Below are positions 39,885 to 45,623 of a stretch of 64,000 nucleotides of DNA, in pieces. The stretch spans positions 1 to 64,000 of the forward strand of contig CACEIC010000002.1 of NCBI GenBank assembly GCA_902559605.1, in the 5' to 3' direction. Position numbers and translations under genes: made by a program. The first letter of the stretch is position 1. Each line of letters opens with the position of its first letter. The notes beneath the pieces are model-generated. The model saw only the letters and a program-made list of their open reading frames with translations, made no database searches and was not told where the DNA came from. This DNA comes from an uncultured Pelagibacteraceae bacterium (GTDB taxonomy: Bacteria; Pseudomonadota; Alphaproteobacteria; Pelagibacterales; Pelagibacteraceae).

Positions 39885-40276
39885 TGAATAGTTTTTTAAA
39901 GAAAGTAATCGCCCAATCTCCAGATGACTTACAAATCATTTCAGCAATATGTGCAGAATCTAAAGTCAAAATTTCTGATATAAAATACCTTCCTTCTACG
40001 AAAATTTTTTTACTTTCTGTTTTAAGAAAAGATAAAGAAACAGAAAATAGTAAACCGATAAATAGTGTTGTAAAATTTGAATTTATTGAAAGTTCTAAGT
40101 CTAAAAATATTGACCAGTCCAATACAGGATTAACTTTAGAGTTATTCGCTATTGATATTTTCAAAAAAAAAGAAAATTTTGAAATAGTTCTGTTATTTTC
40201 AAAAAATAGAATTATAACACTGTCCACAGAAGTTATTGACGTAACATTGGAGGACCAAAAAATTAAAAATGATTAA
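39884..40276 (+). CDS. DUF2948-like protein (GTG start)
   Basis: AQSPDDLQIISAICAESKVKISDIKYL; located between murA and hisD. Confidence 0.75.
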   Translation: MNSFLKKVIAQSPDDLQIISAICAESKVKISDIKYLPSTKIFLLSVLRKDKETENSKPINSVVKFEFIESSKSKNIDQSNTGLTLELFAIDIFKKKENFEIVLLFSKNRIITLSTEVIDVTLEDQKIKND

Positions 40277-41531
40277 GTTTTTAGATACAAAAAGTATAAA
40301 TTTTCAAAAAAAATTAATTGACTTTTTGGAATCAAGGAGATCTGGAAAGAATATTGATACAACTATAGTTAAAAGAATTCTAAAAGACGTAAAATTAAAC
40401 AAGAACAAGGCATTGTTAAAATATGAAAAAAAATTTAGCAATAACAATTCGATAAAAATTAAAAACAATGAGCTAAAAAATTCAATTAAATCTTTAAATG
40501 AAAAAATAAAGCAATCAATTGATTTAGCATATGATAGGATATTTAATTTTCACAAAAAACAGCAGAGAAAAAATATTTTTTATAAAGATAAATATAATAA
40601 TAAGCTAGCCTATAAATATGTTCCATTGCAGTCAGTAGGAATTTATGTTCCTGCAAATTTACCCTCAACATTGCTTATGAATTCTATACCAGCCAAGATT
40701 GCTGGCGTTAAAAGAATTGTTTTGGCCAACCCCAAACTTAATGGAAAATTAAATCCAGCTGTTTTATACGCTGCTCAAAAAGTTGGAATTAATGAAATAT
40801 ATTCAATGGGTGGTGCGCAGGCTATTGCAAGTTTAGCCTATATTCAAAAAGTTAATAAAATTGTTGGACCTGGTAATATTTTTGTTGCTGCAGCTAAAAA
40901 GGAATTATTCGGCCAGGTTGGTGTAGAGTCTATGATAGCTGGTCCTTCAGAAATAACAATTTTAGCAGATAATAAAACTAAAATAGAGGATGTCCTAACA
41001 TCAATGATAGGCCAAGCAGAACATGATGAAAATTCACAGTGTATTCTTATTTCAAAAGATTTAAAATTGATAAAAGAATTTCAAAAAAAAATTAAAGAAA
41101 GAATAAAAAAATTACCAAGAAGATTAATAGCTTTTAAAAGTCTTAAAAATAATGGTTTAGCAATTCTTGCAAGAAAAAATTCAGATATAATTAATTCAAT
41201 AAATGAAATAGCTCCGGAGCACTTAGAAATAAATATTTCTAAACCAGATAAAATACTTAATAAAGTAATCAACGTTGGAAGTGTTTGTATTGGTAAATAT
41301 TCACCAATGGCAGTTACAGACTATAATGCTGGCACAAATCATGTCTTACCAACTTTTGGATCTGCAAAGTTTGCGTCAGGATTGAACGTTAACGAATTTT
41401 ATAAAAAAATTAGCTATATAACTCTATCTAAAAAAGGTGTTGAGAAAATAGGAGAATCCGCTACACATCTCGCAGAGTATGAAGAATTATATGGTCATGC
41501 TTTAAGTATAAGATCAAGAATGAGGAGATAA
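40269..41531 (+). CDS. hisD: Histidinol dehydrogenase
   Basis: [65 protein letters not shown]. Confidence 0.96.
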
Positions 41532-41944: not shown

Positions 41945-42157
41945 ATGAGTACATTAAAAGGCAAAGTAAAGTGGTTCAACGGTAAGAAGGGCTACGGTTT
42001 TATTGAAAGAGAAGACGGAGAAAAAGATTGTTTCGTTCATGCGAGTGCAGTTAGAGAAGCTGGGCTAAGATTTTTGAATGAAAACGATGCTATAGAATTC
42101 GAAATTCAAGATGGCGAAAAAGGTCCAAGCGCTGTAAATTTGAAAAAATTAGGTTAA
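41945..42157 (+). CDS. Cold-shock domain protein
   Basis: [31 protein letters not shown]. Confidence 0.95.
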
Positions 42158-42188: not shown

Positions 42189-42221
42189 GGAATAGGATAT
42201 GTTAGAAGACATAGCTATTCC
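42189..42221 (+). other. Predicted stable RNA hairpin downstream of the csp gene
   Basis: GGAATAG-GA-TATGT-TAGAAG-ACATA-G-CTATTCC: 7 bp + 5 bp separated by a 2x1 internal loop. Confidence 0.6.
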
Positions 42222-42276
42222 TGTGCAAAGCTTTTTCTTACTTGCATTTCAAAAAAAAAATGCTACTAACACAACA

Positions 42277-42351
42277 ATGACTAAAAACGTAATTATTAAA
42301 AGAGAAACACACAGACATCATTTTCATGCTGGCTGCAAGCTAGCTATTTAA
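42277..42351 (+). promoter_or_regulatory. Candidate His-rich leader peptide (24 aa; in frame with a longer 50-codon ORF from 42199) upstream of tRNA-His-hisS-hisZ-hisG
   Basis: MTKNVIIKRETHRHHFHAGCKLAI*; codons CAC AGA CAT CAT TTT CAT; overlaps hairpin GCTGGC-TGCAA-GCTAGC (42328-42344). Confidence 0.35.
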
Positions 42352-42401
42352 CTATTTATAAATTTAATTTTATCCACATTTAGTATAAAACATCAGAAGG
42401 A

Positions 42402-42478
42402 GCACGGGTAGCTCAGTTGGTTAGAGCAGCGGTTTGTGGAACCGAAGGTCGACAGTTCGAATCTGTCCCCGTGTACCA
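42402..42478 (+). tRNA. tRNA-His (anticodon GTG), CCA encoded, no encoded G-1, A73
   Basis: GCACGGG/CCCGTGT acceptor (G1:U72), A73, anticodon loop TTGTGGA, T-arm GACAG-TTCGAAT-CTGTC; base -1 is A. Confidence 0.95.
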
Positions 42479-42482
42479 AAAA

Positions 42483-43913
42483 ATGAATAAAGAAAAAAAA
42501 TTGTCAGCCAAGAACCCCTCAGGTTTTGTTGATAGATACGGTAACGAATTAGCATTAAAAGAAAACTTAATTGCTAAGATTGAAGAAAATTTTTTAAAAT
42601 TTGGTTTTTCAAAGCTAGAAACTCCAAGTTTTGAAATATCAGAAAACATAGGAAAATTTTTACCAGATGAGGATAGACCAAGCTCTGGTGTATTTGGTTT
42701 TCAAGAGGAAAATGATAGTTGGATATCATTACGTTATGATTTAACTGCACCATTAGCAAGATACGTGTCTCAAAATTATTTAAATATCTCAAATCCTTTT
42801 AAAAGATATCAAATCGGTAATGTATGGCGAAATGAGAAACCCGGACCTGGTAGATTTAGAGAGTTTACTCAAGCCGATTGTGATATTATTGGATCCAATA
42901 ATCCTTTAGCAGATGCTGAGATGTGTAATCTTTTAGCTGATACATTATATTTTTGTGGCTTAGAAAAGAATCAATATCAAATTAAGTTGAGTAATAGGAA
43001 ATTAATCCAGGGACTTATTGAAAATTTAAAAATTTCAGAAAGCAAACAACAACTTACTGTTTTAAGAGCTATTGATAAACTTGATAGAGTTGGAACTGAT
43101 GGCGTTAAACAATTGCTTACAACGGGACGTGAAGACAAATCCGGTGATAAAACTATTGGAGCAAACCTCTCCGATAATCAAGCTGAAGAAATAGTTAGTT
43201 TTATAAACATGAAATCCCTAGATGAAATTAAGTCAGCTATACCAAACAAATTAATTGAAGATGGTGTTGATGAAATAAATAAAGTATTAGATGGATTAAA
43301 TTATTCATCTAATTTTGATCAAATAATTTTTTCTCCAGAGGTTATTAGAGGACTTGAATATTATGATGGTCCAATATTTGAGGCAAATTTAACATTTAAA
43401 GTCAAAAATCAAAAAAACCAAGAGGTGGAGTTTGGCTCAGTTGGTGGAGGTGGAAGATACAATTCTTTGGTTTCAAGATTTAAAAAAGTAGACTTATCTG
43501 CAACAGGAGTTTCCATAGGCCTTGATCGTTTGTTATACGCATTAGTTCAGTTAAATAAAATCGAGGTAAAAAATAATTCACCAATAATTATATGTGTTTT
43601 AGATCAAAAATATCTCTCTAATTACTATGAATTGTTATCACAACTTAGAAATCAAAACATAAGATCTGAAGTTTATCTGGGAGATTCTGGTTTGAAATCT
43701 CAATTAAAATATGCAGATAAAAGGAGCTCACCAGCTGTAATTCTTTGTGGAGATGATGAATTTAAAAATAATAAAATTACTATAAAAAAATTAGTCCCAA
43801 ATTTAGAAGAAACATCAAGAAATTTATCTAGAGAAGAATGGAAAAAATCTGAAAATACTCAAATTACATTTGACAAGGAGAACCTGATTGATGAAATCAA
43901 AAAACTTATCTGA
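42483..43913 (+). CDS. hisS: Histidyl-tRNA synthetase
   Basis: LRYDLTAPLARYV, RYQIGNVWRNEKPGPGRFREFTQADCDIIG, GRYNSL; ATG at 42483 (the longer ORF reads through tRNA-His). Confidence 0.94.
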   Translation: MNKEKKLSAKNPSGFVDRYGNELALKENLIAKIEENFLKFGFSKLETPSFEISENIGKFLPDEDRPSSGVFGFQEENDSWISLRYDLTAPLARYVSQNYLNISNPFKRYQIGNVWRNEKPGPGRFREFTQADCDIIGSNNPLADAEMCNLLADTLYFCGLEKNQYQIKLSNRKLIQGLIENLKISESKQQLTVLRAIDKLDRVGTDGVKQLLTTGREDKSGDKTIGANLSDNQAEEIVSFINMKSLDEIKSAIPNKLIEDGVDEINKVLDGLNYSSNFDQIIFSPEVIRGLEYYDGPIFEANLTFKVKNQKNQEVEFGSVGGGGRYNSLVSRFKKVDLSATGVSIGLDRLLYALVQLNKIEVKNNSPIIICVLDQKYLSNYYELLSQLRNQNIRSEVYLGDSGLKSQLKYADKRSSPAVILCGDDEFKNNKITIKKLVPNLEETSRNLSREEWKKSENTQITFDKENLIDEIKKLI

Positions 43914-44943
43914 AAATATTTTAAAAGTAATTAAGTCAAACGGATATAAATATATTGATCTTGATACAGTTATTGACACTAATTTAATATTGGAAAGGTC
44001 AGGAGAAAATTTCAAAAGATTTATATTTTCTTTCAATGATCAATTAGGAAATGAAATTTGTTTAAGACCTGACTTAACAATTGCATCTTGTGTTAGATAT
44101 TTGAAACAAAAAAAGAAAACTAGTGAAAAAATTTTCTATAGTGGTCAAGCATTTAGGAAAGGATTAAATAAAAAAGACTCTGTTATCAGAAATCAGATTG
44201 GTTTCGAAATATTGGGATCTTTTACTGAAAAAAAAGATGATAAAAAAATAATAGAAACTTCACTTAAAGCATTATCAAAAATTAAATATAAAAGTGGATA
44301 TTTAGTAATAGGTAACATAGAAATTTTTAGGCTTTTGTTAGATAAATTGGATTGTCCAGCAAGATGGAAGTTAAGATTACAACGTCATTTTTGGAGAGAA
44401 AAATATTTTAATGATTTATTGAAAAGATTGGAGACTAATTCTGATATCGACCCAACAATTGTCGAAATAGATAAAAAAAAATATTCTAAAATGATTAATG
44501 GAAATAAAAAAAAAGAAGTTGCTGGAAGATCAATAGAAGAAATATTGTTAAGATTTGATAGTAAAATTAAAGATCCAAGAAGAACAAAAAAAGGTAGTAA
44601 TGTTGTAAAAATTTTAAAAGAGTACTTAAGAATTGAATGTCCTATTAATCAAGCATCTAAAAAGTTAAATTTATTTTTTAAAAAAAATAAAATTAATCTT
44701 AGAGTTCAGGATGATTATTTCCCAATAACTAAAAATAAAATTAATAAATTAAATGTTAGTTTCAATTCTTCTTTTGGAAGACATCTCGAATATTACACTG
44801 GTTTGGTATTCAAGATTGATATTAAATTAAAGTCTGAGAAGTTAAATATTAGAGGTGGTAGATACGATTCTTTAATTAAAGATCTTGGATTTAAAAAAAA
44901 TATACCAGCTGTTGGAGCAGCTATTAACTTAGAGAAATTATGA
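43891..44943 (+). CDS. hisZ: ATP phosphoribosyltransferase regulatory subunit (HisRS paralogue)
   Basis: LRPDLTIASCVRYL, GQAFRKG, RGGRYDSLI; between hisS and a short hisG. Confidence 0.88.
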   Translation: MKSKNLSENILKVIKSNGYKYIDLDTVIDTNLILERSGENFKRFIFSFNDQLGNEICLRPDLTIASCVRYLKQKKKTSEKIFYSGQAFRKGLNKKDSVIRNQIGFEILGSFTEKKDDKKIIETSLKALSKIKYKSGYLVIGNIEIFRLLLDKLDCPARWKLRLQRHFWREKYFNDLLKRLETNSDIDPTIVEIDKKKYSKMINGNKKKEVAGRSIEEILLRFDSKIKDPRRTKKGSNVVKILKEYLRIECPINQASKKLNLFFKKNKINLRVQDDYFPITKNKINKLNVSFNSSFGRHLEYYTGLVFKIDIKLKSEKLNIRGGRYDSLIKDLGFKKNIPAVGAAINLEKL

Positions 44944-45623
44944 GTAATAGCATCTTAAAAATTGGAATTCCAAGTAAGGGACGTTTGCGATCAGGAGTTT
45001 TAAATATTTTTAAAAGAAAAAAATTAAAAATTCTTTCTGAAAGAGGTGAGAGGGACTTATTTGGATTTATTAAAGGAGAAAAAAATATTACTATTAATTA
45101 TCTGCATGCTAGAGAAATAATAGAACGTCTTGCGGATGGATCTCTAGATATTGGCTTTTCTGGATATGATTTATTAATGGAAAGCGAAATTAACATTCAA
45201 AAAAAAGTGATTGTAAAAAAAAAGTACGATTTTGGAGAAGCTAAATTAGTAGTTGCAATCCCAGATGATTGGATAGATGTACAGACAATGCCTGATCTTG
45301 AAGAAATAGCTTTTGAATTTAAAGAAAAAAAAAAAAATAGATTACGTATAGCTACAAAATACCCAAATTTAACAAGAGAATTTATGTTCTCCAGAGGAGT
45401 TACTCAATTTAAATTGGTGAAGAGCCTTGGTGCAACAGAGATATATCCATTTACCAGATCATCTGAAATAATAACCGATATAACTTCAACCGGAGCAACT
45501 TTAAAAGCTAATAAATTAAGGATATTAAAAGATGGAATAATTCTTAATTCTCAGGCTTGTTTAATGACATCAAAAAAAAATAGAGAGATAAAAAATCTTA
45601 AAAGTGTTTTAAATAAACTTTAA
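44940..45623 (+). CDS. hisG: ATP phosphoribosyltransferase, short form
   Basis: KIGIPSKGRLRSG, LDIGFSGYDLL, VTQFKLVKSLGATEIYP, ITDITSTGATLKANKL. Confidence 0.93.
   Translation: MSNSILKIGIPSKGRLRSGVLNIFKRKKLKILSERGERDLFGFIKGEKNITINYLHAREIIERLADGSLDIGFSGYDLLMESEINIQKKVIVKKKYDFGEAKLVVAIPDDWIDVQTMPDLEEIAFEFKEKKKNRLRIATKYPNLTREFMFSRGVTQFKLVKSLGATEIYPFTRSSEIITDITSTGATLKANKLRILKDGIILNSQACLMTSKKNREIKNLKSVLNKL

Follow-up and report, generated by a model that had tools for sequence, protein, structure and literature searches.

Members of the order Pelagibacterales (SAR11) share a short, histidine-rich open reading frame (ORF), followed by a structured hairpin, in the region upstream of the histidyl-tRNA synthetase gene hisS. 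We consider this order-wide conserved His leader peptide, with its adjoining hairpin, to be real, and its role in regulation to be putative. The best explanation, which we hold to be the probable one, is that the leader is a minimal, leaderless, ribosome-mediated histidine attenuator. The element is described here from a 64,000-nucleotide stretch of a Pelagibacter draft genome (hereafter the window), where the genes on the forward strand are ordered hisD-infA-tRNA-Phe-csp-gap-tRNA-His-hisS-hisZ-hisG (Table 1). The gap between csp and tRNA-His, 244 nt in size, houses the leader ORF, while the ATG of hisS starts 4 nt past tRNA-His.

Table 1. Features of the his leader locus, with positions given in window coordinates.
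Feature	Position	Strand	Remarks
hisD	40269-41531	+	upstream of infA, tRNA-Phe and csp
infA, then tRNA-Phe		+	between hisD and csp
csp	41945-42157	+	gene just 5′ of the gap
14-bp inverted repeat, probable csp terminator	arms 42182-42195/42215-42228	+	read from sequence; outside leader RNA
P1, proposed leader promoter	42242-42269	+	-35 TTGCAT (42242-42247), 16-nt spacer, extended -10 TGCTACTAA (42261-42269); 7 nt ahead of ATG
Leader ORF MTKNVIIKRETHRHHFHAGCKLAI, probably leaderless (ATG = +1)	42277-42351	+	counterpart in 59/59 usable order-wide loci
His control codons CAC AGA CAT CAT TTT CAT (H R H H F H)	42310-42327	+	recur at same place in unrelated clade sequences
Hairpin B GCTGGC-TGCAA-GCTAGC, putative attenuator hairpin	42328-42344	+	about -8.2 kcal/mol; right after last His codon
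AU-rich tail, weak U-tract	42345-42373	+	4 T among first 8 bases
Probable P2 -10 (TATAAA), second promoter for tRNA-His-hisSZG	42384-42389	+	conserved motif before tRNA-His
tRNA-His (GTG), CCA encoded	42402-42478	+	ARAGORN and Rfam
hisS, histidyl-tRNA synthetase	42483-43913	+	TIGR00442, 358 bits (cut-off 287)
hisZ, ATP phosphoribosyltransferase regulatory subunit	43891-44943	+	NF008953, 338 bits (under cut-off 384); best family
hisG, ATP phosphoribosyltransferase	44940-45623	+	TIGR00070, 173 bits (cut-off 76)

The four His codons of the leader ORF, located at 42310-42312, 42316-42318, 42319-42321 and 42325-42327, correspond to leader codons 12, 14, 15 and 17 and thus fall within six codons, with the hairpin directly 3′ of them. 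An ORF with at least four His in six codons was obtained in only 6 of 20,000 dinucleotide shuffles of the gap. Furthermore, the leader is the sole short ORF with such a His cluster on the forward strand of the 64-kb window, while one is found on the reverse strand. A functional micropeptide was disfavoured, as the translated product has no match in Pfam or NCBIfam and its N-terminus is variable.

Sequence upstream of hisS was compared among 60 genomes representing both Pelagibacterales families (f1 and f2) and ten genus-level groups, of which 59 loci were usable. Similarity of HisS or of the gap determined the choice of these loci. A short ATG-initiated ORF is present at the matching position in all 59, and 47 of these encode at least three His residues. 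Single leaders contain one and six His, respectively, while two His are found in 11 loci, three in 25, four in 18 and five in three. The sequence-only reading had placed a His-rich leader ORF and hairpin before tRNA-His-hisS-hisZ-hisG; its coordinates check, and the leader-peptide idea stood up order-wide when put to the refutation test of an unconserved frame or unconserved His codons in relatives. Histidine accounts for 14.7% of leader residues in the order-wide sample, compared to 0.6% in the HisS, HisZ, HisG and HisD proteins of the window, the former share being raised somewhat by the partial use of His-containing patterns in choosing the ORFs. Three loci without a patterned match were read by eye, two of them having leaders with two and one His and the third lying at a contig edge.

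The His motifs of the leaders differ widely (HRHHFHAG, VHAHFHAG, HTHHHTHAKH, HSHRMHA and THHHIHI), with further variants in the order sample including HRHHFHAGCKLAI, HTHHHTHAKHGLGN and HSHRMHARLLLS, and clades with unrelated leader sequence still place the His cluster ahead of a hairpin. In the RHFHHG variant one codon is deleted and four His are retained by a shift to RHFHH. The f2 leaders are eleven-codon ORFs, such as MIVFTHHHIHI. One subclade of genus-level group g1 has a leader with just two His codons, and one locus has a single His codon. A g1 subclade of eight loci carries a longer leader, STLRxxLxGTxRxVHxHxHAG, the codons of which form an extra hairpin (CTTTAAGA/TCTTAAAG) 5′ of the His codons. 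Relatives with just 50% identity in the HisS protein still share approximately 81% identity in the gap DNA, indicating that the gap is under constraint.

Among 69 unique 24-codon leaders, the frame and stop codon are retained and codons 2-10 vary freely, while codons 14, 15 and 17 encode His throughout. Codon 14 shows only CAT/CAC exchange and codon 16 only TTT/TTC. This set was pattern-filtered, yet all 100 loci identified through similarity of the gap yielded a leader, indicating that the filter removed little. The amino acid at codon 21, in the hairpin loop, varies between Lys, Thr, Met and Gln, suggesting that the RNA stem, and not the peptide, is constrained there. This free exchange, together with conservation that is strongest over the hairpin, would also fit a conserved non-coding RNA or promoter element in which the His codons are incidental. 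We regard this as very improbable, as the clades, despite their differing sequences, all have clustered His codons in a frame whose ATG keeps a fixed distance from the -35 element. From this conservation we infer that the ORF is coding, and a histidine-sensing leader peptide is, on the sequence evidence, very likely.

The leader is furthermore tied to the histidine genes downstream. The hisS-hisZ-hisG genes follow it in all ten operons checked, which cover both families. Four of these, all from f2, retain the leader without a tRNA-His gene before hisS, indicating that the leader tracks hisS and not the tRNA. The distance between the encoded CCA of tRNA-His (42476-42485 region) and the hisS ATG is 3-7 nt in 144 of 150 f1 loci, and excision of the tRNA would make the hisS mRNA near-leaderless. 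The tRNA-His gene of three loci also shows strong divergence between clades, with both flanks conserved, as if the allele had been replaced in place between the leader and hisS.

In f1, the 5′ arm of the hairpin starts within a few bases of the His codon that ends the cluster, and in f2 it starts just past the stop codon. When the arms of six g1 variants were compared, all six core pairs showed compensatory types, while swapped arms paired at only 63%, and compensatory types were observed in four of nine pairs of the f2 hairpin; these arms were taken manually from folds, and the covariation calculation is not tree-aware. The eight bases 3′ of the hairpin contain between zero and six T, depending on the clade, and the f2 tail is C-rich. 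The U-tract is weak or absent by clade, which argues against the hairpin being a textbook intrinsic terminator. It is not reported by a terminator scan, and canonical terminators in a 20-kb stretch of the source genome are not above chance (6 versus 7.4 expected). We give premature termination at or near hairpin B a slightly better than even chance of being the way in which the leader acts.

Eleven f2 loci share a conserved C-rich stretch (ACCCC) 3′ of the leader hairpin, as well as an inverted repeat of the TAGTATC..GATACTA type immediately ahead of hisS. Both f2 elements, like the weak U-tracts, are compatible with a His-sensing leader whose output is Rho-dependent termination, RNA stability or RNA processing, and not hairpin-driven termination. 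However, covariation keeps the hairpin beside the His codons, as would be expected if the ribosome controls the hairpin, and in the window only some 50 untranslated nt separate the leader ORF from the tRNA. We consider these other outputs rather unlikely.

The start of the leader transcript can be predicted from promoter spacing. Of 54 diverse representatives from both families, 50 have a TTG 33-37 nt (mostly 35-36) 5′ of the leader ATG, compared to only 2-12 at other five-base offsets. The P1 call rests on this conservation, because a strict sigma-70 scan of the window does not list P1. At a normal sigma-70 promoter, transcription starts approximately 35-36 nt downstream, counted from where the -35 element begins. 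The spacing between the -35 element and the ATG, combined with this geometry, places the +1 at or next to the ATG. Shine-Dalgarno-like matches occur in 6/54 representatives, and short A/G-rich words can give such matches by chance. A leaderless leader mRNA, with the ATG as +1, is thus likely from the sequence. The inverted repeat on the csp side probably separates csp from P1, and other clades have a different hairpin at this position.

With the inferred +1 at the ATG, the mutually exclusive pairings that had been proposed between the hairpin and upstream segments lie outside the transcript. The TGCAA at 42224-42228 forms part of the 3′ arm of the probable csp terminator, upstream of the +1, while the CTTGCA at 42241-42246 overlaps the -35 of P1 and is unlikely to occur in the leader transcript. 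Similarly, the 50-codon version of the ORF, beginning at 42199, has to be abandoned, as its start codon lies 5′ of P1 and many relatives do not retain it. Extra hairpins near the leader are found in some clades only. A pairing between AUGAUUAAA, where the leader begins, and UUUAAUCAU immediately 3′ of the hairpin (window 42277-42285/42347-42355) is possible in many g1 relatives. This long-range helix between the AUG region and the tail has a permutation p of about 0.0005 with relatedness not fully controlled, and it is mismatched in the window; for both reasons it was set aside as a main argument. Where formed, it would hide the leader start codon.

The suspicion of the sequence-only reading that tRNA-His has a promoter of its own gained ground, as a [T/G]ATAAA motif is located 16-22 nt 5′ of tRNA-His in nearly all loci of the order sample that carry the tRNA. 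This conserved sequence suggests a second promoter, P2, in f1, and as such the leader may tune the operon without fully controlling it. Against the attenuator, P2 could make much of the operon transcription leader-independent. Taken further, P2 alone might drive tRNA-His-hisSZG, with the leader RNA being mainly an independent short transcript that acts in trans as an sRNA or peptide, like rnTrpL/peTrpL of Sinorhizobium meliloti. The conserved P2 -10, the leaderless architecture resembling S. meliloti trpL (PMC7298713) and the pairing of 5′ and 3′ ends that is possible in many clades are consistent with such a role. It is nevertheless improbable, as the leader stays ahead of hisS-hisZ-hisG where tRNA-His is absent, and its poorly conserved N-terminal residues and a C-terminus that changes with the hairpin are unlike those of a functional peptide.

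The ribosome-mediated attenuator, which we favor, could function as follows. Judging by promoter spacing, transcription from P1 would start at or next to the AUG, allowing immediate ribosome loading without a Shine-Dalgarno site. In the window, the ribosome would then translate 11-16 codons and reach the His cluster directly 5′ of hairpin B. When charged tRNA-His is plentiful, the ribosome would pass, hairpin B would form and most P1 transcripts would end or fail to continue. When it is scarce, the ribosome would linger on the later His codons and cover the 5′ arm of the hairpin, so that transcription may proceed into tRNA-His, hisS, hisZ and hisG. Baseline levels of tRNA-His and its synthetase in f1 would be supplied from P2. 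In a folding model with the ribosome footprint masked, most of hairpin B is lost with the ribosome at the third or fourth His codon, while the hairpin still forms with the ribosome at the first. A ribosome at the stop codon would also mask the hairpin, indicating that timing matters.

The locus thus combines a short ORF with clustered His, its coding status drawn from conservation, with downstream genes dedicated to the same amino acid. No competing, mutually exclusive antiterminator pairing was found by folding in the window or in its clade. More tentatively, the leader may be a two-state attenuator, ancestral to SAR11, that needs no separate antiterminator: with the His codons directly adjoining the hairpin that would terminate transcription, a ribosome slowed on the leaderless mRNA could itself take the role of the antiterminator. 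Such a switch would adjust tRNA-His, its synthetase and the enzyme for the first step of histidine synthesis in concert.

The Rfam His_leader family of enterobacterial hisL (RF00514) gave no covariance-model match to the leader at the gathering score or at E-values up to 10, and a known Rfam family was rejected given the absence of a match even at E = 10. Like hisL, the SAR11 leader comprises a short ORF with clustered His ahead of his genes and a hairpin downstream. It differs in that no 1:2/2:3 antiterminator was found, the His codons abut the hairpin, the target begins with tRNA-His/hisS and the mRNA is apparently leaderless. In Bacillus, His leader peptides precede hisS* and hisZ (PMC2965389), and in several Firmicutes they precede his operons and are accompanied by terminator and antiterminator structures (PMC9413887). 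The SAR11 leader resembles these in being a His-rich leader 5′ of the same HisS/HisZ gene family (PMC2965389, PMC9413887), while the phylum and the sequences differ. The trpL attenuator of S. meliloti is likewise an alphaproteobacterial leader peptide with a transcript that begins at the AUG, as predicted from spacing in SAR11. It senses Trp where the SAR11 leader would sense His, and it forms mutually exclusive structures and yields products that act in trans (PMC7298713).

Among 40 upstream regions from other Alphaproteobacteria, a His leader was found in family f127 only, along with one chance-like ORF, and family f41, which looks HIMB59-like judging by its size and base composition, has none. 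The ten f127 loci encode MNTxLHHHHHHA/S/V ahead of hisS, with TTGACT located 37-39 nt before the leader ATG and competing G+C-rich hairpins past the stop codon. Both the f127 and SAR11 elements are His leaders ahead of hisS, but their sequences are unrelated and the f127 leader is probably of independent origin. No publication on the f127 leader was found in the literature searches made. Similarly, no description of the SAR11 element was found in the open-licence literature searched, so that older or subscription reports could have been missed, and histidine is not mentioned in a 2009 survey of structured RNAs in P. ubique.

SAR11 bacteria rank with the most abundant cells of the ocean, and few regulators are known from them. 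From its sequence, the most likely role of the leader is to let histidine shortage be sensed through a slowed ribosome. Up to ten Pelagibacterales genomes showed no comparable leaders at ilvB, trpE and leuA, and a His-sensing leader present order-wide would as such be a rare case of an amino-acid switch being conserved in a streamlined genome. If true, a leaderless leader peptide would be linked to the control of both a tRNA gene and the cognate synthetase, and the SAR11 leader would test how little RNA an attenuator needs.
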